From: Blastocystis hominis
Lineage: Eukaryota > Sar > Bigyra > Opalinata > Blastocystidae
Direction of reading: 5' to 3'
DNA length: 64,000 nucleotides
NCBI RefSeq assembly: GCF_000151665.1
Contig: NW_013171815.1
Coordinates: 1,873,153 to 1,937,152 of the forward strand
Of the stretch, positions 12,674 through 53,191 are shown in pieces (position 1 is the stretch's first letter; every line of letters begins with the position of its first letter). The position numbers were made by a program, and so were the translations under genes. A model generated the notes under the pieces. The model was not told the DNA's origin, did not search any database, and saw only the letters and a list, made by a program, of their open reading frames with translations.

Positions 12674-13496
12674 ATGGATTCTAACAGTAGGAACAACGAA
12701 TATGTGATAACAATGAGATGGACTGCAAACTCTTAAGGGAGGCGAGTTTCTCCTGGATGGCTACATTACTCTTGGTGAGCAAAAGGAGATCACTTTCGGT
12801 GGCTCCAAATACACTCTCCAATGCTTTGAAGGGGATCACGAAGACGAATATCTTTTGAAGAAAGATCAGAAAGTCTGCTTATTCCAGAATGGAGTACTCA
12901 AGATGATATATGAAGAAGAAGCGGACGGAGCTCAGATCGGAGAGTTCACGAGGTTTGAGAATGGTTGTGTTTCCTTTGTCCAGTCATTTGATGACATATT
13001 GGATAACCGCAATTTCAACCGGATAGTAAACCATGTGAACGGGAAACGGATGGAAATCTATTCTCATGACAGTGACAAATTGATGTATCATGGAGAATTC
13101 AATGAGAGACGTGAGAGAGAAGGATGGGGTATCCAATACGATGAGACATCGGGAAGAATGTTGTTGGAAGGAGTATGGAAGGGAAACAAATTGGTGGAGA
13201 TCATCCGTAAAATCGAAGGGACCATTATGATCGAGTTTAAACGAAATGGAGATAACACAACCGCCTCTAATCGAGTTCCCCTTTATGTGGGTGAATTCAT
13301 TTATGATGAATCGAAAGAATTGTTTATTCGAAATGGTCGAGGATACTGGATCGATGAAGAAACTCGGATTGCTACTCGCGAAGTGGAATGGAAAGATGGA
13401 GTGGAAGTGAGTGGAAGAGATCTGTATGATGGATGGTACACTCGATCCACAACTCCAAAACCCAAACCCAAACCCAAACCCAAACCCGCTCCGATG

Positions 13497-13528
<32 letters not shown>

Positions 13529-14529
13529 AAAACGCGAAGAATCTGCTCCTCTTCGATTCAGCGTCACTGGATCTACAAAATGGACCGATGTGAGTTTGCA
13601 AGTGACCGATTTGAAGATTTCATCGAATTGCTGTAACGATTTGAATGCATTGGATCTGAATCGATTCGAGTGGCTACGATCTATCGAAATCGGCAATGAA
13701 TGCTTTGGATCAGTGCAAACATTCAAAATCGATGGATTGAATCGATTGAAAACTATCAAAATCGGAAACAATTCATTCACTCAGAGAAAGAATGATGAAG
13801 AGGAAAATGAAAATGAAAATGGCGATAGTGAATCGAAATCATTCCACATATTGAATTGTGGATCATTGGAATCCATTCAAATTGGTGAATACAGTTTCAG
13901 TGATTTTGCTGGAGACTTTGAATTGAGCAATCTACCACAATTACAATCCATTCAAATTGGGACAATTGGAAATGATTCAAGCAATTTCTTGTATAGTTCA
14001 TTTGAGATTCGAGGTATCGATATGATATTGAATATTTGAATGATGCATAGATCTTCCAAATCTACAATCCATTACATTAGGTGATTTTGCATTCGCTGGT
14101 TCCCTATCGACAATAATTGAAAGTATTGAATGAATTCGAATAAAATGATTGATGTAGATCTTCCATCATTACAATCCATTCGACTCGGTTGGTGTGTACT
14201 TCATGGAATAAATGTTGATTCATGCTCATTGACACTTCGAAGTAATAATGAATTGATTGGTTATGATTTGCTTTGTAGATCTTCCAAATCTAACATTAAT
14301 AACTTCTGTAAAATGGAGTTTCCAATATCCTCGTGTAGTGAAATTGGAAAGTATTTCTGAATATTGAATATTGATAGTATTTAGATATTCCAAATCTTCA
14401 AAATGTCAAGCTACCTTATTCATTCCAGAAAGTTCGATCGAAATCAATTTCGAGTATAGTTTGATTAATTTGATTTGATTTATAGATGTTTCCTCCATTC
14501 TCGCTGATCTTGTCGAAATCGATGAGTAA
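12674..14529 (+). CDS. MORN-like and leucine-rich-repeat protein with Pro-Lys/Pro-Ala linker
   Basis: About 550 aa in at least seven exons. The start ATG at 12674 gives MDSN, then a 31-nt intron, then GLQTLKGGEFLLDGYITLG. Residues about 60-250 have MORN-like spacing (LMYHGEFNERREREGWGIQY; LYVGEFIYDE...NGRGYW). A linker (PK)n then (PA)n lies at 13455-13530. The rest is a BspA-like LRR array: SFHILNCGSLESIQIGEYSF, FELSNLPQLQSIQIG. From 14005 on each repeat is its own exon, always opening with AT CTT/GTT/ATT after an intron ending TAG (DLPNLQSITLG, NLPSLQSIRLG, DLPNLT..., NIPNLQNVKLP, NVSSILADL). Stop TAA is at 14527. No signal peptide or membrane segment. Function unknown; the same LRR module ends the GTPase gene at 19-22.5 kb. 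Confidence 0.8.
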
Positions 14530-17500
14530 TTCCAGCATTGGATCTACACAAATCACTCCATTCCATTCCAATCCATTCAATGATCATTGTATATTCAATG
14601 CTTACTTTGTTTGTTCCAAACCCCTTACCATTATTCTTTGGTCATTGATTTAGGATCCAATCATCGATTGACTCTTTTCCATCATCACAACCCAGATTGG
14701 TTTAGCTAGCATGTTCCAATCCTTCTTGTAACGATGTTAAGAATGAAAATAAAGAATTTATGAAAAATGAAAAAGCCAAACTAATACTATCCAGTATAGT
14801 TCAGTGTTCAAAATAAAAATGTGTTATACTGGACAAATCACTAAATTCTGAATGATTGAATTGAGACTATCAAGTGTATGAACGGATAGTCTCAAAAAAT
14901 AATTATCTATACTAACTTGAATAATGATAATAGAAAGGACATTATATTCCATTCATTGTCTTTATTCGATTTACATGGTTTGAATGAGAATATACTTATT
15001 TGAAATGAGTTATGTAGTAAACTATTAATTTTGGAAGTAGTTAAGATTTGTATTATTTCGTTCAATATTTATAGTAGATTAATCAACAATCAGATGGATT
15101 GATACATAGATAGAGAGTATAGTAAAAAACGATTGATATGAATTGTGTTATGGAAATCATTTTAATACTGACTACAACATACTTCATCACATGAATCAAA
15201 TATCAGTTTTGTCTGATCTATTCCATATTCAAACCGATACATTCACATTCAATAGCCACCTATTATAGCTATTATTACTCTATTATTGTATTATTAGTGA
15301 AGTGGTGTGCTGTTCGTTGTTCACCTCGAACCTATTAGAAAGAAACACAATGATACCTGTATTCTATTTCCTACATTAATTCGGTCACATCCAACCGTTC
15401 ATTGATTTCGATATACTTATTGTTTCAGATTTACGTCATATACGCATTACTAACTAAATTTTCTTGTTATGCCCTAACGAATAAACTTGTTCATCATAAT
15501 CACACTTTTTGTACTGTCTTACATTCTCTTTTTTCTTTGTGTTATGAATAAGATATGATAGCGATTGCTTTTTCTTTTCTTTTCTTTTCAAACAGTGATT
15601 CATAATTGTTTGTACATTTGTAATGACTTTTGCATAATCAGGATAGTAGTAGGTCTCATAGTAAAGTGCTGTACCCAATCTGTTGGTGTATCATACACAT
15701 TACGTTAGGTGTTATATCCGTTTTTCACTACTCACAATCAAAGACTACACAATTTTAATGAAGTATGTCTATTTGGTTGTTATTTTCATTTCTAAACATC
15801 GTTGATTTTAATGTCTGTATTTCTGACTTGCTTCATTGTAGTTAACTAATTATTCGTCACTGATAAAACAACTTCACTGTTATTTGATGACTTCTTAAAT
15901 GAAAGCGTTCTTTTCAAGCATATTTTGAATTACCATTTACAGATCGATTTTCTCAATGCAAACAATTATAATAGCCACAGCAACTCGTTACCTATGAAAC
16001 TACTATTTGGGAACATTCCATATCACATTTCAACAATTTACAATCCTTTACACGGATCAAATAACAAAAATAGGAAAAATAATCCAACAAGAATATGTTA
16101 TTCTGCATTCTATTCACGTTATTTATAGTTTCTTTGTTGCAAAAACACACAAATCAATTACAGATATATATATTCTTTTCTATATAAAATCCCTATCATT
16201 CAAAAGAAACCAAGGCAATTGAAGGATGGTTATTTGAGCCTTTTAGATGTGTTTGTAGATCCATCATTATGCGTTTTTTTCTTTGTACTATGTTATACTA
16301 CAATTCTATAAAACTGATCAAAAGCACATTACAAGCTGCTTGATTATTGATTAGTAATGTTGAATTACCCTGTTTTTCATTATCAATTATTCTATAGTAT
16401 TATGCAACCAGCTTAATGTCGATTTGATAAAATACTCTCATACACAATAGTGATATGAATTGTTAATTTCATACAATAACAACTATTACTTACATATCGT
16501 TTCTGTGCATGTAATACGCTTATTGGTGATTCACATCCTATTTTGTTATTTATCAAAATTCATAAAGCATATATCTGTGCAAAAGGCATAGAAGTGATGT
16601 TTCCACATTACGTTATAGCTAGATTATCTACTAACCATCCACGTATTTCTATTTGATTGTATGTCTAATAGATGTTATTATTAGACTTTACACGAATTTA
16701 TACAGATATTAACATTACTTATCAATATCCAAATGATAATATACTATTTATTGTCTATATTATCTTTAAAATAGCTTGATAATTTGTTTTTATCGCTTTT
16801 GTTATTTCTGAAGCATATTTGGAATTGGTAGATTTAAGTGTTTTAAGTAATTGACACAATAATAAGAAAAATGCAATGAATCATTTCCTTATACTCTTTC
16901 AAATACTAAATCTATTTAGCATAACCTGTGTAATCACTATATGTATGATAGTTCTTTATTGCCAAGACTCTAACTATCTAACAATATCCGTTCAATTATC
17001 CTTTCATTTATTCTAATAGCTGGAATAATAAATTATTCTTACATAATCTAAGCTGTTTAAAAAAATGACCACCAAACTCAATTCACACACATTAGCTAAA
17101 CAAGTTCAAAAGTATTCATCATATTTACACCTATCTTAGCATACTCGCTTTTAGATATCGTTGTATTACATTCCATAATACAATACTAACGATATTCATG
17201 TAGTAATTCTAGAGATTATCGTTCTTATTATTTCAAATCAATACTCACTTTTCTATAATAATATGTTGATCTTTATAGCCATTGCAATAATGATTGGAAT
17301 ACACTATATCCTAAGAATATCATATTCGGATGAATGTACAAACTGGCCTCTGACCAATTAGTATCAGTTGTTAATATCACAGTCATTACAAATGCAATAG
17401 TGATAGCAGTTTATCGAATTGGTTTACTAGTGAGCTACATTCGTCACATTGGATATTCTTATGAATCGTACTGAATTAATAATTTGACTCATTCCAAGTG

Positions 17501-19023: not shown

Positions 19024-22000
19024 ATGAGCGAACGAGGTCGATTCCGAAGAAGTGTCTCATCCAATGAACATCCTATCCAGGTGAGTTAAACTCGATTCCT
19101 AATATTTGTAGTTCATTGTTGCTGAGGGGCAATCCAACGTTTTTTCAGTCAATAAAGAGCAGTTGCATGAACTGATCTCCCAGGTATATCCACTCATTCA
19201 GGTTTGACATAGATTCCACATAATACTCCGCTTAGCGTTATTTCAATTGTAGGAGCTTTTCGAAGCGGTAAGTCTTTTTTGTTAAACTTTTTTCTCCGTT
19301 ATCTTCACGCCTTAGAAGGTATTCATTCTCTTCTATTACTATTATTCGTAGGTGGACAACGCATCTCACAAGGGTCCGTTTCTTCTTGGATGCAGTTTGG
19401 TGGAACTATCTTAGAAGGGTCCTTGAACAGTGCTAGAAGGGAAAACGGGTTTTCTTACGGTGGTGGAAATCAAAGGGTGACAGAGGGCATCTGGCTTTGG
19501 AGTAAACCTTTTATTATTCCTGATCCAAGCACAGCTGGAGGAAAGCTGTGTGTACTCCTCATGGACACGCAGGGGATGTGGGATGGGCAGACAGGTCAAG
19601 GGTTGACAACGAGTATTTTCGGTTTATCGACACTCCTCTCTTCCTATCAAATTTACAATGTCCAAAACCGGTTACAAGAAGACCAGCTCCAGCACTTAGC
19701 GATGTTTTCAGAATATAGTTTAAAGATCAGTGAAGTGAAGAAATGGAAGGAGAAAGCGCCATTTCGTCATATCGATTTTCTGGTGCGAGATTTTTCAGCA
19801 TTTTCGAATGAAAAAGATGTAGAATCCTGTCTGGAAGAAATGAAGACTTATAAACAAGAGTTTTTAGCTCCTCGAAATGCAGATGATCTCAATGAAACGC
19901 GAAACAAGATTCGAAAATGCTTTGAAGAGATTGATGTGTTTTGTCTGCCTCACCCAAATCGAGAGGTTACGACTTTGTCATTTAGTGGAGTTATCGATTC
20001 CATCTATCATCCATTCCTCGCTTTGTTAGGATACTATGTCGATCACTTGTTTCGAAATTGGATACAACCCATGGAAGTGAACAACCGAATCGTGTATGCC
20101 AAGGATTTCGAATCGTAGGACTTCAGCGTTTGTGTAAATCTAGTTATGCATTGCGATATGGAGAACTCTTTGCCAAACAGTCGAGTTTCCCATCCGTTCA
20201 TTCTATCCTCCAAGCCACTGCCGAAGTGGAGATTAGCCGAACAGCGAACGACTGCTATGATGTTTGAATGCGATTCTAGAATATAAACTGTAGATGTATT
20301 CGAATATGATGGATAAGTCTTTGGATTCAGTTCCCTTCCTTACTGAAAGCGCTTTCTCCCAGACTCATGAAAATGCCCTCAAACAAGCGTTGACTGTGTT
20401 TGATACAAATAGTATCTTTGGAGACAAGTCCCGAATTCGGAAATATCGGGATTCGTTACAGTCCAAAATCAAAGAGAAAAGATACCGGCTTGAGATACGA
20501 AATTGGAAACGACTCATTTCAGAACAACAAAAGAGGTGGGATGAGGAGCGACAGGAACTGAAGAAACAATTGAATGAAAAGGACGCACAGGCATCTTCGA
20601 TGAAAGTCGAAATGGATCGAACGATTCGAACAGCCGCTTCGTTGAGTGAGGAAATTCAAAAGAAAACAGATCAGATTGACCAACTTCAAGTCCAATTCCA
20701 ACAGAAGAATTCTGAAGCCTCCACATTATTGCTGGAAAGCAAGCATTTACATGATGAAGTCAGCTCTTTGAAGAGTCAGTTGCAAGTTGCCGTTCAGGAT
20801 AAAACTTCAAATCAAGAGATGTTGAGAAAGAAGGAGACAGAGAATACAGTGTTGAGAAAACGAGTCGAAGAAGAAGCTGCTCATTCTCGAACTCTGTCGG
20901 AACAACAGCTAAAGAAGGAAAACCGAATTGCCGAATTGGAACGGAAAGTGAGGGAGAAAGAGGCTGAAATCCTAAGTCAGCAAAAGGAAGCAGAAAGCAA
21001 GAAGAAAAGATTGAATACGCTGTATGAAGAAGGCAGAAAGAAAGATAGTCTAATTGGAGAGCTCAATGGAAAGATCAGTGTTCTGCAGCGCAGAGAAGAA
21101 GAATCAAAAGATCAACTGAGAAGCTATGTGACGCAGCTGAGCCAACAAGAATCAAAGATACATGAACTGAATATGGAAGTTCGACTTAAACAAAAAACGA
21201 TTACAGATCTCGAAAGTCAAATCCGATCAATGGAAGTCACTGAGAAAACAATGCGAAAGCAGCTAGCAGAGAGGGAAGAAAGCCAGTTAAAACTGAGCAA
21301 GAGAGGAGATGAACTGGCTGCCCAACTTGGAGAAAAGGAAAGGCAAAACAGCGAGCTGAGAACGAGAAACTACAAACTCACTGAAGAAGGCGGGAAAGCG
21401 AAGCAGAAGATCGAGTTGCTTACGATTCAGGTTCAGAACCGCGACAACATGATCAGTCGATTGAAGACAAACTATAACAGCTTGTTAAGTCAGGCACAAG
21501 AAAAGGATAGAACGATCCAACGATTAGAAACAGACAAGAGAACAATCGAGGAATCACAAAAGCTGACGGAAAGCAAAGTTCTGGAACGAAATGCGAAGAT
21601 TAGCGAAATGGAGAAAGCGATCGAAGTGCTGAAAATCGATGCGAAAGGCGAGCCATTGGTGATTGACTCCGGATCCTTCAACTCAGTTACAAAATACGTT
21701 TTTTCGAAGAATATCGAAACTTTGGAAATCGCTGATGATTGCTTCATCAATCTCTCTACGTTCCATATCGATGGACTGCGAAAACTAGAAAGCATTCGAA
21801 TCGGAATGAACAGCTTTACGAGAGTGAAGAGCGACGATCACTGGGATTGGAAAAAGGTAAACGATTCCTCACGTTCTTTCCGAATTCTGAATTGTCCGCG
21901 ATTGAAATCAATCGTGATTGGGGAGTTTAGCTTTAGCGATTATGCCAAGGATTTTGAATTGTCAAATCTTCCTGAATTGGAGGTTTTGAAGCTTGGAGTT

Positions 22001-22554
22001 ATGAATAAGGATTCGTCGAACTTCTATTTCGCTTCTTTCGTTGTACGAGGTAGGCATTGTCGGCTCTTTTGAATACTTCACAGATCTCCCCAGTCTGAAA
22101 TCGATCGAATTGGGAAACTGGACGTTCTACTGCTCTTTTGAAACAGTGATCCAAAGTACACACATTCGTTGATTTCTCAGTAGATCTTCCCAGTTTGGAA
22201 ACCATTCGTCTCGGAGAACACGCTCTCGAAGGAAAAGACGATGATCGATGTTCTCTGGTTCTACAAGGTCGACTTCGAAATGCTAATTCATTGGTAGATC
22301 TTCCAAAGCTGAGCTCGATTTCGTCTATTGGATCTAGCTTCCATTATTTGCGTCGTGTGACGCTGGCAGGTAAAATTCAAGGTTTGTATTTTGTCAAAGA
22401 ACTTCCAAAGGTGGAGAAAGTGGAGTTGCCCGCTGCATTCGAGAAGGTTCATACGCAAAAGATTCAGGGTATGTTTGGTTGAGTGGACTTACCAAAATAG
22501 AGAATGTCGCTCAGTGCTTAGTTGATATGATTCATCCAAAGAGTAAAGAAACGT
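19024..22554 (+). CDS. GBP/atlastin-like GTPase fused to long coiled coil and leucine-rich repeats
   Basis: About 1,070 aa in about 11 exons, with introns of 28-36 nt. Domain order: short basic N-terminus (MSERGRFRRSVSS). A dynamin-type GBP/atlastin G domain follows: G1 GAFRSGKSFLLNFFLRYL, switch region HALEGGQRISQGS, G3 DTQGMWD, and LVRD resembling the RD motif of G4. A helical region comes next, then about 400 aa of heptad coiled coil (QLNEKDAQASSMKVEMDRT... to KISEMEKAIEVL). The C-terminus is an LRR array (SFRILNCPRLKSIVIGEFSF; ELSNLPELEVLKLG), then one LRR per exon (DLPSLKSIELG, NLPSLETIRLG, DLPKLSSIS, ELPKVEKVELP). Known: this GTPase family self-assembles and remodels membranes; GBPs act in cell-autonomous immunity. 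No C-terminal membrane anchor or CaaX. No encoded stop before the octamer; UAA is probably created after T22554. Confidence 0.85.
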
Positions 22555-22558
22555 GTTT

Positions 22559-22566
22559 TGTTTGTT
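22559..22566 (+). terminator. 3'-end octamer TGTTTGTT of GTPase-LRR gene
   Basis: Exact octamer 4 nt after T22554. The frame reads ...AAA GAA ACG T, so cleavage there yields UAA. This is the same 4-nt spacing as at VPS54. Confidence 0.75.
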
Positions 22567-31312: not shown

Positions 31313-33257
31313 ATGGATAACAAAGCTGTTGAAGTGAAGGTTGAGGGTCAAGAAAACACCACAATATCTCCCAGTAGGTGGCGCCCGTAGAATTCTCCTG
31401 TAGAGTCCGGAGAAGTGGAAATGTCCTTAATCTCCTCCGATACCGTTGAGGTGAAGAGATCTGCTAGTGCAATGGTGTGGTTCGTGGTTGTGTATTATGT
31501 AGGATAAGATTGCATTGGGAGCCGCTTCCTTAACCCAGGGCTCTGCGTAGTTGAGTCGATGGGAGTTAACATTTAGGGGTCAGGGAAAAAGTGGAAGTTT
31601 CTACGGAGAGATGGATCCTGCCCTTCTTCCCTCAATTATTAAGAGAGGTTCTTCTATGATGGGAGAGGATGCGAAGAAAGAGGCAAAACCCAAGACTTGG
31701 TGCGAAGTGTTTTCACAAGTCAGGGTCATTGCCTGTATTATTGGACTTGTGATTTCCATCGTCGTGATGTGCCTCCCCCTGAATAAAGAGAAGCCCGCTA
31801 TTGCAAAGACTCTCGGAGTGTTGTTAATTATGGCCACTTGTTGGATTACCGAAATTCTTCCCCTTTCTGTGACTGCACTGTTCCCTGTCGTTATGTTCCC
31901 TCTACTGGGTGTGGAGAGTGCTTCCAAGATCTCAACCCAGTATTTCAATGATACCATTTTCATGTTCCTCGCCGGCTTCTTGCTGTCGCTTGCGATGGAG
32001 CGATGGAATCTCCACAGACGAATTGCTCTGTTCATTACTTCTTTCTTCGAGCGTCCGCGAAGCATTCTCTTTGGTGTCATGTTTGCCGCTTTCTTCCTGT
32101 CCATGTGGATTTCGAACACGGCCGCTGCTCTTATGATGGTGACCAACGTCACTGCCTTGGTCGATACTCTCGAAGAGCACTACGGAAAGCAAAAGATGGC
32201 TCGTTTCTCAAAGGCGATTATGATCGGAATTGCCTTTTCCTGTAACATTGGAGGCTTCGCCACGCTGATCGGAACCCCTCCCAACATGCTGTTCGCTCAG
32301 ATCTTCGCTCAGACATGGCCCTACGACCCCACCAACCCCAATGGTCCTCCAGATATTTCCTTCTCTTCCTGGCTGATCGCCGTGCTGCCCTGCGATATTC
32401 TCCTGTTCATTTTGATGTGGCTGTACTTCGCGTTTGTCTACACTCCCAGTGCCACGGAGCTGCACATCGATCCTGGCTACTGCGCCCAGGAATACAAGAA
32501 GCTCGGCAAGGCGTCCTACGAGGAGAAGGTCGTGTTCACCGCCTTCATTTGTCTCGCTGTGCTGTGGATGTTCCGCTCGGATCTGGGCTCGCTGCCCGGC
32601 TGGAGCCGTCTGTTCGGTGAGTACGCTAGCTATCTTTCGGATGGAACGGTGGGTATGACCATCGTTTTGATTCTGTTCTTTATCCCCACAATGCGTTGCT
32701 GGAAGCGCCAGAACACGGAAGAGGAGGACGCCACGATCCTGACGTGGAACACCGCCAAGAAGCTGCCGTGGGATCTGGTCTTGCTGTTCGGAGGAGGCTT
32801 CGCGTTGGCGGATGCGTGCAACGTGTCGGGTCTCTCCGAGTGGATTGGTGATTTGCTGAAGGGTATCGGTAGTTGGCCGCTGTTCCTTGCCATTTTGGTG
32901 ATGACTCTGGTCATGTGCGTCCTCACTTCCTTCACTTCGAATACCGCGACTGCCTCCATTCTGCTGCCTGTGATGGTTGGTATTGCACAGAAGACGCAGA
33001 TCAACCCGCTGGTGTTGATGGTGCCTGTGACCATTGCCGCGTCGTGCGCGTTCCTGCTGCCTGTCGGTACGCCTCCAAACCTCGTCGTATTCGCATCGAA
33101 CCGTATTACCATGCTTGATATGTTGAAGGCTGGTATTATGACCACCGTGCTTGCTTTGATTATTATCATGCTGATTACTTTTGTCATGCTTCCTTTGGTG
33201 TACGACGTCGATCTGGATTCGTACCCTGCGTGGGCGAATACGACCTCCACTGCTTAA
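31313..33257 (+). CDS. SLC13/DASS-family sodium-coupled dicarboxylate or sulfate transporter
   Basis: Imports di/tricarboxylates or sulfate with Na+. The start ATG at 31313 gives MDNKAVEVKVEGQENTTISP. Three introns of 28-30 nt follow (31374-31410, 31473-31500, 31548-31580), then one long exon. About 11 hydrophobic helices. Both signature SNT motifs are present: WISNTAAALMM (about 32110) and TSNTATASILLPVM (about 32940). PVGTPPNL is near the end, and the repeat GTPPNMLFAQ lies in the first half. The N-terminal cytosolic region of about 100 aa is charged. Stop TAA is encoded, then TGTTTGTT at 33279. The substrate cannot be fixed by eye. The gene converges with PheRS alpha across a tandem-repeat zone. 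Confidence 0.93.
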
Positions 33258-36396: not shown

Positions 36397-38550
36397 TTAC
36401 AACTGGCAGTGGTCATTCGTGCAGAAGGACACAGCATCGGGGAACATCTGTCCCACTCCCTGTTCCTCCTCCTCCTCCTCTCCCTCATTTTCATTCTCCT
36501 GCGCGAACAACACTCTTCTCGCCGAGCTCTTCTTGCTCGGAAGAATCATGAACTTGTTCTTCTGCGTCAGCTTGATCGGGGAGAACTGCGTGGGCTTCGC
36601 CTTGACGACGGCGGGCTTGCTGCGATCCACGAACTCGATGGGCTTCAAATCGCGCGTCATTTCGTTGTAGACCTCCTCGGAGATGGCCTCGTAGGGCAGC
36701 TGGGGATACTTGGAGTAGTCCTGCTTGGGGAACATGGACACTCCCTTCAGCTGGTACTGGAAGTACTGCAGCATCTGCGCGATGTGCGGTCCCTCGCTCT
36801 CCGGGTCGAACGTCACCGTGCACGACACCTGGTTGTCCGCCCAGTACCGCTGCAGGAACGCCGCCAGCGACAGCTGCTCGAACATCGACACCTCGCTCTG
36901 CACGCGCACGTTCGCGGGCAGCTTCACCGGCACCTCCACCACCACCGTCGTGTCTTCCTGCCCGATCGCCGGCACCACGCTGTACCCCGCGCGCCGCAGC
37001 GGCGCCACCAGCGGGTCGTTCTTCCCCATGCGCATGCGCCGGATGTAGATCCGGCTCTCCGGGAAGTGCATGCCCGGCGTGGAGCCCGCCAGCAGCGACA
37101 CCGTCCCCGACGGCTTCACCGAGGTCGTCTTGATCGACCGCGGGATGCAGAACCAGTTGCTGTACACCTCGTCCCAGTGCTGCACCGTCGCGTAGCCCTC
37201 GTCCAGCCACTGCCGCAGCTCCTCCAGGCTGTGCTTCCCCAGGAAGTCCGCCACGCCGCTCACCGAGCACCCGATCCGCCGGTTCCGCAGCATCACGCGG
37301 TTCGTCTCCGGCCAGTGCGTCATGCGCAGCGTCACCGTCTTCGCGTACAGGTACGCGAACTTCAGCGTCCGCAGGTACTCCTCCTTCGTCGCGTGCCGCG
37401 CGGGGAACGTCTCCACCAGGCAGCACAGCTCGTACGACTCCAGCGACTGCTCCAGACACGGGTTCCCGCCCTTCACGCGCCAGTCCTTGTTGTTCGGACC
37501 GTCCGCCATGCGCCCGAACCGCTGCATGTTCTCCAGCCACGCCAGACCCGGCTCCCCGTTCACGCGCAGACGGCTCGCCACTTCCGAGTAGTCCATTCCC
37601 ACACGCGCGAACACCGAGTTGTTCGACGACCAGCCGTACGCCATGCGCTCCGGATGCTTCGAGTAGTCCTTCAGGTCCAAAAACGTCTCGTCGTCCGCCT
37701 CGCCGAACGCGATCTCCGCCGAGCGACGCACATTCCCGGAGACCACGCACTTCCCGATCAGATTGAACAGATCCACGATCCCCGTCGTGTCCAAGCGCGA
37801 ACCAATCCGCTTGTTCAGCACCTCGCGGATGCTGCAGTGCAGCTCGCGCAGAGGACGCGGACCACTGCTCACTCCGCCGAACGTCTTCAACGGCTCGCCC
37901 TCGGGACGAATCACCGAGTAATCGAACTCCACGTCCGGCTGTTGAACTCCGTTCACGCCAAAGTACGCCTTCAGCAGCAACGACACGGAGCTCACCCATC
38001 CTTCGCGCGAATCATCGATCACATAGGTGAACTTCTCTCCCTCCTTCGGACCCAGCACCGGCAGCGTGTCGCGTCCCTTCGTATCGAAACCCACACCCAC
38101 TCCCAGCATCGACGCATCCATCAAAAACTCGAAGGGACGCGTTGGGTTGTTCACAATATCCTCCGTAGACACGAAGGCACAGTTGTTCAAAGCGGCAGAC
38201 AGATTCTTCTTGTGGACGATCGCAGTACCCATAGCCCACAAACCACGACCAGGAGGCAGGAATTTCATGTTGAACATCAAATCGTACATCTCTTGAGCCG
38301 ATCGTTGACCATGCTCATCATCCCAACCCAGGTGGAAAGCTTGAATGTGTTCCTTCTGCAATGAATAGGTTCCTTCCACTACACGACGGACAGTCTGCCA
38401 CCAGTCTTCGTTGGTTCCATCCTCCAGTTTTCTAGAGTAGGTGCGACGATACACCATTTCACCCAGAGGCGCATATCCAAAAGGAGGCTGAATCGTCTTA
38501 TATTTATCCAGAAACTCTTCGTCCAATTTGAAACAGAGATTACAATTCAT
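36397..38550 (-). CDS. Adenosylcobalamin-dependent (class II) ribonucleoside-triphosphate reductase
   Basis: 717 aa, one uninterrupted exon. Reduces NTPs to dNTPs with a cobalamin-derived radical and needs no oxygen. The start ATG at 38550 (MNCNLCFKLDEEF) aligns with the family start; upstream frame lacks ATG. Seen: TYSRKLEDG; NNCAFVS (first active-site Cys); MLGVGVGFD; SGNVRRSAEIAFG; GNPCLEQSLESYELCCL (catalytic thiyl Cys with N and E, plus second active-site Cys); SVKPSGTVSLLAGSTPGMH; and a C-terminal CTNDHC redox pair. Known: monomeric RTPR as in Lactobacillus, also in Euglena, Dictyostelium and some oomycetes. An acidic EEEEEEQ stretch sits before the C-terminal Cys pair. GC-rich and intronless among intron-rich genes, which is compatible with lateral origin. 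Confidence 0.95.
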   Translation of the reverse strand: MNCNLCFKLDEEFLDKYKTIQPPFGYAPLGEMVYRRTYSRKLEDGTNEDWWQTVRRVVEGTYSLQKEHIQAFHLGWDDEHGQRSAQEMYDLMFNMKFLPPGRGLWAMGTAIVHKKNLSAALNNCAFVSTEDIVNNPTRPFEFLMDASMLGVGVGFDTKGRDTLPVLGPKEGEKFTYVIDDSREGWVSSVSLLLKAYFGVNGVQQPDVEFDYSVIRPEGEPLKTFGGVSSGPRPLRELHCSIREVLNKRIGSRLDTTGIVDLFNLIGKCVVSGNVRRSAEIAFGEADDETFLDLKDYSKHPERMAYGWSSNNSVFARVGMDYSEVASRLRVNGEPGLAWLENMQRFGRMADGPNNKDWRVKGGNPCLEQSLESYELCCLVETFPARHATKEEYLRTLKFAYLYAKTVTLRMTHWPETNRVMLRNRRIGCSVSGVADFLGKHSLEELRQWLDEGYATVQHWDEVYSNWFCIPRSIKTTSVKPSGTVSLLAGSTPGMHFPESRIYIRRMRMGKNDPLVAPLRRAGYSVVPAIGQEDTTVVVEVPVKLPANVRVQSEVSMFEQLSLAAFLQRYWADNQVSCTVTFDPESEGPHIAQMLQYFQYQLKGVSMFPKQDYSKYPQLPYEAISEEVYNEMTRDLKPIEFVDRSKPAVVKAKPTQFSPIKLTQKNKFMILPSKKSSARRVLFAQENENEGEEEEEEQGVGQMFPDAVSFCTNDHCQL

Positions 38551-38998
38551 GTTCCGAGGATATCTATATAGCGTGAGATACAACTTCACACTGTTTTCCA
38601 AGGGATCCTACCTTATGTGGAAATATTTTTTGAATTCAATTTGAAAGGTGGCGCCAGAAAAAGGGAGGCAAATGGCGGGATCAGAAAGAAGAACCCGCGA
38701 ATTTTAATATAGAAACTAATAATCGGAAACCGTTGATTTGCTTTCCATCCCCCAAACCATATTTTTCAGCTTTGATAATGCACTACCGCTGTCTAGACAT
38801 GGCAAGAAAGAAAGGAAAATGTAAAAACAGTAACACTTGCTCTATTTGCAAAGCAAATGGTGCTTTGTCTCATGATAATTTCTAAATTTTTGAAAATGAA
38901 ATTGCTTACAAGTTGATATCAATGGTCAAACATTTTTCGTTTTTTCCTGTTTGAATTTATTTTTTGTAAACTTCTCAAAGCCACGCTGGTTTGGCAGA
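38551..38998. other. Divergent intergenic region
   Basis: About 450 nt between the divergent reductase and small membrane-protein genes. No gene seen; it should contain both promoters. Confidence 0.55.
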
Positions 38999-48038: not shown

Positions 48039-51000
48039 TGCGTACTTGTTATTGCTCTATTCCTTTTTTTCTTTTAGTTCTTTATTGTAATACGAGAGAG
48101 AGTTGACTCAATACCTAGGCACTCAGTCTTTGCTGTGTTCAAGGAGCGATCGCCAAGTACCTCTAACCGTGTTTATTCAGAGTGAACGCCCTAGTCGCAA
48201 TACCCGCTTTCTTGTGACAAACACATATTCAACACCTGAAATCCTGTACTATGATAGTAAAAACTCGTTGAACGGGTTAATGGAATACACAAAGACGTTG
48301 TGCGTCTCTGAAAATGATCAGATGGCCTACAAGTTGATTGTTGAGACGTACCCTATGGAGTGAGTGTGCTATTTAATAGAAGTGGGGTGATTGACAGTGA
48401 GTTGGAAATTGCCATATTCTACGGCTATCACACAGTGCGTTCTACCATGCGAATCAAAATCAAGCTTCAGCAATCGGAGCAGCCGACCATCATGAAAGGT
48501 CCTTTCACCAGTAAGTGTCTGGACGAATTTCCGATGTTTTCTAGTTCCGAATATCGTCTGTTCTACCGGGAAGCAATACTCTCTTTTCAAAAACAACGGT
48601 GCCTACTCCAACCAAGAATACGTGTATATTTGGGGCACAGTTCCCACAACGGGAACAAAGAAGCTGCTCCTCTCCCTCCCCAGCAACACGGACTACATCA
48701 GCTACATGGTGGACGTGTGCATTCCGAACCAGATGGAGAACATCCAGCTGATGCTGAAGTCCATCGGTGGCGGCAGCTGGGGCGACGAATCCTACGTCAC
48801 CATCTTCGATTCGGTCACCGAATCCACGCTCCTCTCCACCACTCTCCCCGAGCGCGAGGGCGTGACGCTCCCCTTTCCCCTCTCGGTCGCGGTGATCCCC
48901 GTGGAAGTGACCATCCGCACGCCCTCGCTGCAGGACCGCGCGCTCATCACGGTCTGGGGCCAGTACGCGGGGCTCAAGACCATGATCGCGGTGCTCGCCG
49001 ATCCGTTTCCGTTCCAGCCCCACGTCATCGAGACCGTCCACTTGGCGGCGAACGAAGACGAGCACTACGAGCTGCACTGTTCGCACGTGCGCTCCGACGC
49101 GATGACCGTCACGCTGAGCGTCCGCGGCCGCTCCATCGCGCAGTTCTCGCCGAGCAACGCGACGTCGATCCTCCCGATCGGTCCGCTTCGCCGCGCCGCT
49201 TGACGCGTAGACACCGCGCTGTACTGCCCCGAGGAGGTCTGGCACTCCGTGGAGTTCCCGCGGACGCACATCGACCGCACCTTCGCCTTCCTCTGCCTCG
49301 ACAACTCCACCGGCTACACGCGCCACTGCGACTCCTTCGGCAACTGGGGCGCGCCGCAGGGCCCCGGCTGCCGCTGTCCGCAGGAGGAGGACGAGCACGG
49401 CATTCGGTGGAAGCCCATCCAGGGCGGCTCGGTCGTGCAGCGCTCCTGCGTGGGGCCCACCGTCGGCATGATCGTGCGGAACTGCCTCCCCGAGGGGCGC
49501 TGGGTCTACGTGCAGGGCGCCTGCGAGGCCATCACGTGCCCGCAGAACCGCAGCCACGAGGTGGTCTGGCCGGCCACGCTGGGCGGGAAGATCGTCACCG
49601 TGCCCTGCGCGTCTTCCGACTCCGTCGCCATGCTGCGCAAGTGCAGCGATCTGGGGCAGTGGGAGAGCATCCAGGAGCGCCCCTGCTTCTGCCCCGAGGA
49701 GTCCGACGGGGCGTTTCACTGGCCACGGACGCAGGGCGGGACGGTGCAGTCGCTGCGCTGCCCCGCGGCCTTCACCGGCGCCATCACGCGGTCCTGCAAT
49801 CGGCTGGGGCGCTGGGAGGCGGCGCAGCGGCGATGCAGTCGAATTATGTGTCCCTCCAGGTCGGAATTCGGCGTCACGTTCCCGCGGACAGAGAGTGGAA
49901 ACGTGGTAGCGGTGGCGTGCCCGTTCCCGTTCCTCGGCTCGCTGCGTCGCGTGTGCAAGCAGAACGGGGAATGGGGGTACCTCTTCGACGAATGCCAGCC
50001 CCCCGCGTGCTCCGAGTTCCGATTGTCCCGCGACAAACACGGCTGCGTCAGCGTGGACGTCGTGGACCGCGCGATCGGCGAGCTGGTCCGCGTGGATCTG
50101 ACCCCCAAGCCCTCCACGATCTCCTCGATGTTCGACGCGACGCTGCCCGCGACGATCTGCGGCCTGGACGCCAACACGGCGTACGACATGTTCCTAACGC
50201 GCTTCGTGAACGGAACCAACCTCCTCACCAAGGCGCCCAGCCGGCAGATCCGGCAGATCTGCGCGGTTCGGAAGATTTACGGGAAGCAGCAGTGCGAGAA
50301 CGCGACGATCCCGCTGCTGCGCGACCGGTACTACGATGAATCGGGGAACGGTGGAAACGGAGGCGGGATGGGGATCCGCGTGCTGCTGCGCGTTCCGTTC
50401 TGCTTCGACCTCTCCGTGGTGTCGATGCAGCTTCGCATCGAGTGCGTGGACGGCTGCAAGGACGAGCGTCCGCGGATTATGACGCACACCTGCTCCACCG
50501 AGCGGCTCTGCCAATCCGGCAACGCCATCGCCATCACGTCTCCCGCCACGCTCTCGCCCAACGCCACCTATCACGTGTCCACGCGCGCCATCCCCGCTCG
50601 CTCGCTCCTCGCGATTCCTTCGCAGTGGTCCGTGCCGCTGGAGCTCGCGCCCGTTCGGCCAATCGTCGTGCAGCCGCGCCTCCAAGTCATCCCCAAATCC
50701 TCGCACGTGATTCGCCTCACGTGGGACGTGGAGGCCCAAGGCAGGCCGCTCGTCTTCGTCAACTTCTACATCTATGTGTATCTCTCCGCCCCGCACGAAA
50801 CCACCTTCGATCCGCGGTATCTCCGCTTTATGGACTCCCAGATGCTCTGCCCCGGCTCGTCGTCCTGCGAGCGGCGAAGCCTGGCGATTCCGATCGCCAG
50901 CAAGGACTACCGCTACGTGTTCATTCTGCAGAGCGTCCCGATCGACGGGCAGAACGTGATCGCGAAGAACGTGTCGATCGCGTATCAAGTGCCTCGGCAG

Positions 51001-53191
51001 CCGAACGTGCTTTCGCTGGTCACCAACTTCGACGTCTTCGCGAATATCTCCTTCTCGCAGAGCAACATGGACGTTCTGGTGAACTGCTCCGTCTTCAACA
51101 CGCATCGCCGCCTCATCAGCTCCTTCTCGGTCGCCGTGGACTACGGCGAAGTGGCCTGGTACGTCGTCAACGACCTCCAGCCCCAAACCAAATACTCCGC
51201 CATCTGCTGGGTGCGCGACGGGTTCATGGAGGCGCGCGAGTTCGACCTCTCGCTGCAGACGGTCAGCTTCGTGCCCGCCAACGCGTCCATGACGATCTTC
51301 CGCACCACCACGTCCTTCGTGATCGTGGATCTGACCGCGAACAAGCACGGCCGCTTCCACTGCATGGCGATGTACACCAACGACAAGGAAGACCTCAAGC
51401 AGTTCTCCATTTCCTTCATCGAGGAGAACGGCATCACGCTCGACTACCTCATCCCTCACCGCTCCGAGCACCTCTACATCCCGCTCCTCCACGGCGACGC
51501 CGCTCCCTTCCCGCCCGACGACGACGACCTCGACGACGACGACCTCAACGTCTACGTCATCTGCACCTACTTCCCCGTCGTGGGAAAGGTCCCGCAGATC
51601 TCCCAGGGCAAGATCATGCGTCTCCGCGGAAAATCCCCCACCGGTAGGTTCCACGTTTCCACTCGACGGCAGAGCTGTACTACCCGGAGATTCTGCTGCG
51701 CGACCCCCCGCTGGGCGCGACGAGCATCTACTCGCACAGCAACGTGACGCTGCGGTTCGCCACCACGGTCACCATCAAGCAGTCGCTCCGCTATTTCTTC
51801 CTGCTCGAGCCCATCGACGGACTCGGACCCACCTACCGACGCGTCCTCCTCCCCGCCAACCCTTCTTCGTCTCAGACTTTGACATCTTCGTCTCAGACTT
51901 TGACATCTTCGTCTCAGACGATGACATCTTCGTCTCAGACGATGACATCTTCGTCTCAGACGATGACATCTTCGTCATCTAAAATGACATCCTCATCCCA
52001 AATGACATCTTCGTCGTCTTCGTCTCCCACTTTGACATCTTCGCCACCCTCCACTCTGACTCCACCCGGCTCGGTCCTCGGGAGTTTCACTGCGTATGAC
52101 CCGCTGTCGATTCGTCCGGAGGACTGCTGGATCGACCCTTTCAGCATCCGCTGTCCGCTTCCCCAGCTGGACTCGCGGATTCGCTACGGGCTCCGTCCCT
52201 CGCTCCCCGACATGATCGTCGATTCCCTCTCCGGGCACGCGCTTCCCCCAAACCAGCTTTCCCGCGGGAAATACCTCCTCGAGTTCACTGCCGTCGCCAG
52301 TACGTTCCACGTTTCCACGTTTCCACTAGGCGCGCCGCGCATCACCGCGCAGCTGCTTCGTCCCGCGGATATCGCCGCCGCCCCGCTCACCGCCGACCTG
52401 GTGGTGCGCTATTCCCGCGGGGATTTCGCGCCCACGGACGTGCCGCTTCTTTTGGCGCGCAGTTTTGGCGGGGTGGTGCTTCGCGCGCGATTGGGCGATG
52501 CGTGCGCCATCCTGTCCAGCGAGCCGTCGGGCGCGCTTTCCGTGACGATCCCCGTGGGGAAATGTCTGACGGCGCTGGAGCCGGACACCAACTACGAGGT
52601 GATCATCCCCGCGGGATGTTGGAGTCACGGGTCGAAGGAGTCGCCGTCGTCGGCGCGCTTCGCGTTCCACACGGTGGATTGTAAGGCAGGCGGAGGAGAT
52701 GAGACGCAGCGAGCGAGCCGCCGACATTACTCGCGTCTGTGCCGAAAAGCGCGGAGACGCTCGTCTGGAGGCAGGAAGTGCGTCTGTCGTTCGATCGGCC
52801 GGTGAATCCGGGAAGCGGGAAGATTCATGTGGATGTGATCGATATGGTGAGGAACGCGCTGCTGTACGATTCGGTGGAGGAGGAAGCGGCAGCGGTGGTG
52901 AGGGGGACGGACGATCCGTTTGTGGTGAGTTTGGACATGAAGCGATTTCCGTTCTATCCGTATGCGCTGTTTAATGTAAGGAAGGGAGAAGAGCGGCTAA
53001 AATGCAGATTTCGTGGACGGGCGATGCCTTCAAAACGTTTTCCAATGTGAATGCAAAAGAGGGGTACGTGTTCTTCTACACTGTCGACGAAACCTGTGAT
53101 CGGCATTTGCCGGCCGATTCGATGCAACCGCTCTTTTGTAACTATTATTATGATGGCACCAAGCGGTTTTGTCATTGCTCAGCACTTTTCT
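48039..53191 (+). CDS. Giant secreted/surface protein with repeated sushi-like Cys modules
   Basis: About 1,600 aa. The likely start (48039) gives MRTCYCSIPFFLLVLYCNT, a signal-peptide-like stretch, but the first join is uncertain. After short introns (about 48362-48397, 48512-48545, 49182-49210) comes a long extracellular region. Near 49230-50020 are at least five Cys modules of the form C-x-CP...GG...C...R-x-C...G-x-W...C (CDSFGNWGAPQGPGCRCPQE; WVYVQGACEAITCPQNRS; WESIQERPCFCPEESDG). Fibronectin-III-like segments follow, then a Ser/Thr repeat (51863-51975) and a C-terminal SbsA/Ig-like domain (VPKSAETLVWRQEVRLSFDR). Introns at 51644-51672 and 52300-52329 share a TTCCACGTTTCCAC core. No membrane helix at the end. 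The frame meets TTTTTGTT at 53196, so UAA may form after T53191; an encoded TAA follows at 53203. Role unknown; probably cell-surface or matrix. Confidence 0.72.
51863..51975 (+). repeat. 21-nt in-frame repeat (SSSQT-L/M-T)n
   Basis: About five copies of a 21-nt unit with core TCGTCTCAGAC and TGACATCT, encoding the 7-aa repeat SSSQTMT/SSSQTLT inside the giant surface protein. Ser/Thr-rich, likely a glycosylated stalk. Confidence 0.9.

Follow-up and report, generated by a model that had tools for sequence, protein, structure and literature searches.

In a window of 64,000 nucleotides of Blastocystis hominis DNA (the whole stretch analysed in this work; contig NW_013171815.1, positions 1,873,153 to 1,937,152 of the forward strand), a gene at 19024-22554 on the + strand appears to join a GTPase to a long coiled coil and to leucine-rich repeats (LRR). 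The locus raises the question of whether a single protein of this build is encoded, from which GTPase family it was derived and what purpose its unusual C-terminal end could serve. Our best explanation overall, to which about an even chance is given, is a protein of atlastin origin that acts as a soluble GTPase aimed by its LRR tail.

The gene was modelled as 11 exons (19024-19080, 19112-19183, 19213-19318, 19352-20114, 20144-20261, 20294-22049, 22084-22155, 22184-22267, 22298-22369, 22400-22468 and 22501-22554) separated by ten GT-AG introns of 28-34 nt, and it encodes 1074 aa in a frame that is open throughout. An earlier interpretation of this DNA made without database searches (referred to below as the sequence-only reading) had proposed one gene with these limits on the + strand and with short introns, and in these respects it was correct. 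The introns, near 30 nt in length, are like those of Blastocystis, for which introns around 32 nt were reported in the 18.8 Mb genome of subtype 7 (PMC3129679). In seven of the ten introns the length is not a multiple of three and retention of any of these seven leads to a stop; introns 19319-19351, 22268-22297 and 22370-22399 are stop-free if retained, and for these three the frame alone is no proof. Placing intron 4 at 20092-20126 was rejected, as it would delete the residues VYAKDFES, which are matched in the paralogs. The accepted intron is 20115-20143, and the TAA that appeared in a duplicate of the gene (on contig C16, see below) under the rejected placement falls within it. The corrected model, being open throughout, has no premature stop at the joins between 20.1 and 20.3 kb. 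Exon 20294-22049 runs in a single frame from the last part of the middle domain through the coiled coil into the first LRR block, and the fusion of these parts is therefore independent of splicing guesses. It is considered nearly certain that the GTPase, the coiled coil and the LRR belong to a single gene with this architecture.

The genome searched comprised 18.7 Mb in 40 contigs. The Pfam GBP model gave six matches at five places: the window gene itself (19024-22554, +); the duplicate on C16, which is 99 % identical over the large exon and is interrupted by a run of N close to intron 5; the diverged paralog on C39; a second copy of the C39 type, cut by the C16 contig end; and an anchored atlastin on C7 (L010:2100-4050, G000:C7). 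Genes with the same order of domains are thus of two diverged types (window/C16 and C39/C16-end). In the C16 duplicate GT, AG and intron length are kept in nine of nine aligned introns, the tenth being not alignable. The C39 gene has the same domain order as the window gene and is 58 % identical to it over the G and middle domains together, with 169/281 identical residues in the G domain, 63/115 in the middle domain and 55/117 in the first LRR block. By eye its coiled coil is the shorter of the two; the additional LRR blocks found downstream may be part of it. On C7 an LRR gene of the same orientation lies immediately ahead of the anchored atlastin.

The G domain (aa about 45-325; 19213..20091, +, with intron 19319-19351 inside) matched Pfam GBP at 1.1e-45 and contains the motifs GAFRSGKS, T-E-G-I, DTQG and RD, which are presumed to play their usual roles; GAFRSGKS, DTQGMWD and RD, the motifs named by the sequence-only reading, are all present. 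Among solved structures the best match was Atlastin 3x1d at 3.2e-39, in comparison to 1.7e-11 for human GBP1, and the best-scoring structures were atlastins (13 of the 27 matched sequences). The middle domain (aa about 326-440; 20092..20497, +, with introns 20115-20143 and 20262-20293 inside) is resembled by a stretch of a database atlastin, P0003, and the window protein is 50 % identical to the C7 atlastin across 408 columns, middle domain included.

A tree was built for 43 proteins, i.e. 40 of the 120 listed homologs and three genes of this genome. The window and C39 proteins formed a clade (100/100), which was joined by the C7 atlastin at 100/98 (100/97 with the corrected C7 row) and, next outward, by the metagenome atlastin P0003 (100/100). 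All four lie within a branch of 17 rows (99/95) that includes eight named oomycete rows. An alternative grouping of C39 with C7, picked after the tree was seen, was rejected (p-AU 2.6e-5). Judged by the structure matches and the tree, the G domain is an atlastin and not a GBP, and the middle domain, judged by its resemblance to atlastin sequences, is of the atlastin type as well. The earlier assignment to a GBP/atlastin-type GTPase was therefore right about the superfamily, but a GBP with a new end has to be replaced by an atlastin without its membrane hairpin.

Features of GBPs and of anchored atlastins were looked for in the full model. GBP_C (PF02841) was not among the Pfam matches at 0.01, although this is not a sharp distinction because certain atlastins are listed with PF02841 as well. 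A CaaX lipid anchor, borne by only some GBPs, was found at neither possible C-terminus, that is KSKET or, if the protein were extended to the next encoded stop, CSHKE. The two closely spaced transmembrane segments of atlastin were not detected: 19-residue hydropathy past residue 430 revealed no transmembrane stretch behind the middle domain, the maximum being 0.73 in the window protein and 1.13 in C39. The same measure reached 2.46 in the tail of the C7 atlastin, which presumably has a full hairpin, and 1.99-2.35 in four database atlastins. Because the hairpin is absent, the membrane remodelling suggested earlier is unlikely to proceed by the usual atlastin route.

The middle domain is followed, in the same frame and exon, by the coiled coil (aa about 441-826; 20498..21655, +). 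It is about 390 aa long, as compared with about 400 aa of heptads in the sequence-only reading, and contains no proline; its 3.5-residue periodicity had a power of 22.7, in comparison to a mean of 1.03 and a maximum of 7.7 in shuffled sequences (0/2000 shuffles). The first LRR block (aa about 827-955; 21656..22049, +) is homologous to the LRRs of proteins that carry MORN repeats ahead of LRR (MORN-LRR proteins). Four more LRR units follow at 22084..22468 (+), one per exon and with phase-1 introns, their limits being drawn by eye, so that residues 827-1054 hold about eight units (by eye); the protein then ends in a short tail. A broad LRR core pattern of our own making (LxxLxLxxNxL type) occurred five times versus 1.2 in shuffles, and five was reached in 1 of 1000. 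By this pattern and by homology the tail is composed of leucine-rich repeats, as had been claimed.

The repeats are not private to the GTPase gene. The first LRR block is 42-52 % identical to 48 MORN-LRR database proteins, and the best MORN-LRR place in the genome matched the window LRR with an E value of 2.8e-40. The large exon, chiefly via its LRR part, gave at least 80 genomic matches (74 of the 742 first candidates scored) and the later LRR exons at least 147 (150 of 439 candidates scored). When 121 of the 865 candidates for a MORN-LRR query protein were scored, at least 125 matches were obtained, and the about 121 places at which they lie are a lower bound. Over long stretches the MORN-LRR places share 72-92 % of their residues with a database protein that bears the name MORN repeat protein. 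For database protein P0127 the best match in this genome was 91 % full-length and 92 % partial, and a MORN-LRR protein had five entries named Blastocystis hominis (85-89 % identity) among its 120 listed relatives, three of these five being named MORN repeat protein.

From the 80 large-exon matches 30 loci, not all of them independent genes, were fetched. A MORN-type pattern (author-made and without shuffled control) stood in frame ahead of the LRR in 18 of them, three were of the GTPase type and seven had too little upstream sequence. Of the remaining loci, L034 is MORN-like by eye but pattern-negative, and L037 is frameless there, yet its place matches a MORN-LRR protein. In the 26 rows of alignment A2 (24 MORN-LRR proteins from the database plus two pieces of the window), LRR_8 touched 21 rows and MORN_2 six (E up to 1; best 1.6e-4 and 1.7e-4, respectively), and a strict LRR pattern occurred 1.8 times per protein versus 0.01. 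The MORN assignment is weak by profile and is based also on the protein names and on the pattern mentioned above. In the GTPase-LRR protein this pattern had no hits in the 826 residues before the LRR (again without a shuffled control), and Pfam MORN did not match at 0.01. Partners of the LRR module other than the GTPase and MORN may exist. Entropy of the LRR across 48 family members placed the variation at few sites and in one loop, and this was not taken as diversifying selection.

A separate MORN-LRR gene carrying the same LRR module is present in the window at 12717..14608 (+), about 4.4 kb upstream of the GTPase-LRR gene. Its exons were only partly modelled; it encodes a proline-rich linker, and its first frame matched no Pfam MORN, with LRR_8 only, at 0.55. 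A phase-1 intron precedes the D-L-P junction in both genes (in the neighbour by eye). Together with the one-unit-per-exon organization, this shared intron indicates that the LRR tail was most likely acquired as one block with its introns. The LRR end had been presented earlier as part of an unfamiliar architecture; the combination was indeed found nowhere else within the searches made, but the LRR itself is a module of the large MORN-LRR family. At one locus of this family (L064:2-3685, minus strand, G000:C39:554000-560000) the MORN-LRR frame continues stop-free into more than 800 aa without a Pfam match at E 1. We take this extension to resemble capsid-type proteins of polinton-like viruses, and a virus may have inserted here into a MORN-LRR gene. 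The family was not found described in the literature searched, including the main text of both Blastocystis genome papers, in which the words leucine, MORN, guanylate and atlastin are absent.

These results support a scheme in which an atlastin gene was duplicated in this lineage and one copy kept the G and middle domains, is without the hairpin and bears a coiled coil and the module shared with the MORN-LRR family. An origin from an atlastin plus a MORN-LRR module is considered very probable on this comparison. The product would belong to a known class of GTPases, extended by a targeting end that is new and specific to the lineage. The sequence-only reading knew of no such architecture, and protein searches gave the same picture. 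With the full-length query 7996 candidates (about 590-1876 aa) were scored and 229 passed, the best 120 covering at most 47 % of the query locally; with the large exon (coiled coil/LRR) none of 8000 candidates (about 326-1036 aa) passed at E 0.001. Gene models that are shorter or broken in public genomes would escape both searches, and it is within these length and candidate limits that no second example of the atlastin-coiled coil-LRR combination was found. The literature, searched in part, contained nothing on a GTPase-LRR architecture and no report combining Blastocystis and atlastin.

Several known systems resemble the window protein in part. Atlastins, which have been recorded in stramenopiles (PMC9804665), share its G domain, middle domain and place in the tree but have the transmembrane hairpin and not the coiled coil and LRR. 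The silkworm BmAtlastin-n is also an atlastin relative without transmembrane segments and with a coiled coil, and it is cytoplasmic (PMC4926086). Plant GBPL1 and GBPL3, with 1000-1100 aa, likewise have a GTPase followed by a long coiled-coil extension, but they belong to a plant GBP clade and have a disordered region and nuclear signals, and the text of the source does not mention "leucine-rich" (PMC12489281). Zebrafish Gbp4 is a GTPase of the same superfamily with a C-terminal protein-interaction domain; it is a GBP, however, with a CARD in place of the LRR (PMC9005921). The MORN-LRR proteins share the LRR module (42-52 %) and the phase-1 intron at the D-L-P junction, and differ by a MORN-type N-terminus and the lack of a GTPase. 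The likeness to NLR receptors is one of working only, as a nucleotide-binding domain is joined to LRR; the window protein has a dynamin-type GTPase, and the full model gave no Pfam match to NB-ARC or NACHT at 0.01.

Concerning function, we prefer the proposal that the protein serves as a tether or scaffold that is soluble, switched by GTP and directed by its LRR tail. This proposal is tentative, with a probability that we set somewhat short of even, and it is favoured because the G motifs are present, there is no anchor, the coiled coil is long and the shared LRR module seems constrained. The protein would presumably be cytosolic. GTP would pair the G domains, as in atlastins, the coiled coil would form a long dimeric rod and the LRR tail would bind a partner at a membrane or the cortex, perhaps one also bound by MORN-LRR proteins. 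The protein would in this way join LRR-bound sites and would not itself be a membrane-anchored fusogen. Several observations weigh against such a reading. The coiled coil diverged strongly between the paralogs (67/245 aligned residues identical, out of 386), and a precise geometric role for it is therefore doubtful. None of the Pfam LRR matches in the full model was above the cut-off (LRR_At5g56370 0.0013, LRR_8 0.0096; best 18.9 bits versus 27), and a profile of the LRR/MORN-LRR alignment gave eight weak matches to solved structures (best E 0.047), LRR and MORN proteins being among them. Transfer of the LRR module from the MORN-LRR family to the GTPase, and not in the opposite direction, is suggested by family size only.

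The GTPase-LRR protein illustrates a further route by which an atlastin-type GTPase can lose its membrane anchor and be re-aimed, here presumably by an LRR tail common to a lineage-specific family; other soluble or coiled-coil forms are the GBPs, silkworm BmAtlastin-n and plant GBPL1/3. Should the GTPase be guided to a target by its tail, it would offer a testable model for the emergence of effectors among dynamin-superfamily GTPases. The analysis also exposed a very large MORN-LRR family in Blastocystis, which is more prevalent in the human gut than any other eukaryotic microbe (PMC5608401).

The protein could still be a membrane-fusion or ER-shaping factor whose LRR tail binds an anchored partner that replaces the hairpin in trans. 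The good conservation of the G and middle domains between the paralogs would suit such a factor, as would the hydrophobic stretches seen by eye between the MORN and LRR parts in some relatives (L018, L026, L027, L020 and L038). This explanation is nevertheless unlikely, since the normal anchored atlastin on C7 is able to do the same work and a coiled coil of about 390 aa would keep the G domain far from the membrane.

More doubtful is a role in intracellular defence, akin to the detection system suggested by the sequence-only reading, in which an atlastin without transmembrane segments would behave like a GBP and recognition by the LRR would trigger GTP-driven assembly on an invader or a damaged membrane. 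There are precedents for its components: BmAtlastin-n is antiviral (PMC4926086), Gbp4 ends in a CARD (PMC9005921) and in human cells GBPs polymerise over bacteria (PMC12091997). Between the window gene and its C16 duplicate, however, the repeats seem constrained and not diversifying, with a pN/pS of 0.09 in the LRR (2 non-synonymous versus 6 synonymous, only 8 changes), and the genome search revealed no more than two types of GTPase-LRR gene. To our knowledge no defence role has been described for the MORN-LRR family, which also counts against this explanation. A more far-reaching possibility, which we regard as improbable, is a cytosolic recognition system in which more than 100 MORN-LRR proteins and a few atlastins without transmembrane segments share one interchangeable LRR module; the MORN proteins would mark membranes, and the atlastin-LRR proteins would attach to the same target and undergo assembly on GTP. 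In that case an LRR-aimed GTPase would have arisen from an ER fusogen, separately from the GBPs and the NLRs.

Over the whole gene the comparison with the C16 duplicate gave a pN/pS of 0.18, with 14 non-synonymous and 21 synonymous changes (16 codons not comparable; numbers small). The values were 0.19 in the coiled coil (6 versus 8) and 0.20 in residues 1-333 (5 versus 7), and the middle domain had one non-synonymous and no synonymous change. A decaying, functionless gene, in favour of which speaks the incompleteness of both C16 copies in the assembly (run of N; contig end), is very improbable given this pN/pS, the conserved splice sites, coding indels seen only beside the run of N and two diverged types that are both open where read. 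Two genes or a misjoined model, with an atlastin fragment beside a coiled-coil/LRR gene, would agree with the lack of an annotated protein matching the whole architecture in the database searches, but can be given hardly any weight, because in the window, in C16 and in the diverged C39 no interruption of the frame separates the last part of the middle domain from the coiled coil and the LRR. In C39 the two introns ahead of the large exon (20115-20143 and 20262-20293) are also at matching positions (by eye).

The 3' end of the GTPase-LRR gene has a feature of its own. The last coding exon, 22501..22554 (+), is followed by the TGTTTGTT element at 22559..22566 (+), and this arrangement is identical in the C16 duplicate. 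TGTTTGTT is present in 22 copies in the window versus 2.65 expected, an enrichment of about eight times, and one copy is located at 14608, at the end of the neighbouring MORN-LRR gene. In Blastocystis the poly(A) site is placed 4 nt upstream of this element (PMC4159000), from which cleavage after 22554 is expected, the in-frame T becoming UAA. The stop codon of the GTPase-LRR gene, and perhaps of others, is thus probably completed by polyadenylation.

Other open frames lie elsewhere in the window. A sodium:sulfate/citrate-type transporter (9.9e-69) is encoded at 31551-33254 (+), and the frame at 36400-38607 (-) corresponds to a ribonucleotide reductase whose insertion domain is that of B12-dependent (class II) enzymes (6.4e-13). 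In the open frame at 49204-51744 (+) the hormone receptor domain HRM, which is not expected in a protist, was matched by four stretches (6.7e-27); the neighbouring frames, between 48345 and 52802, are also long.
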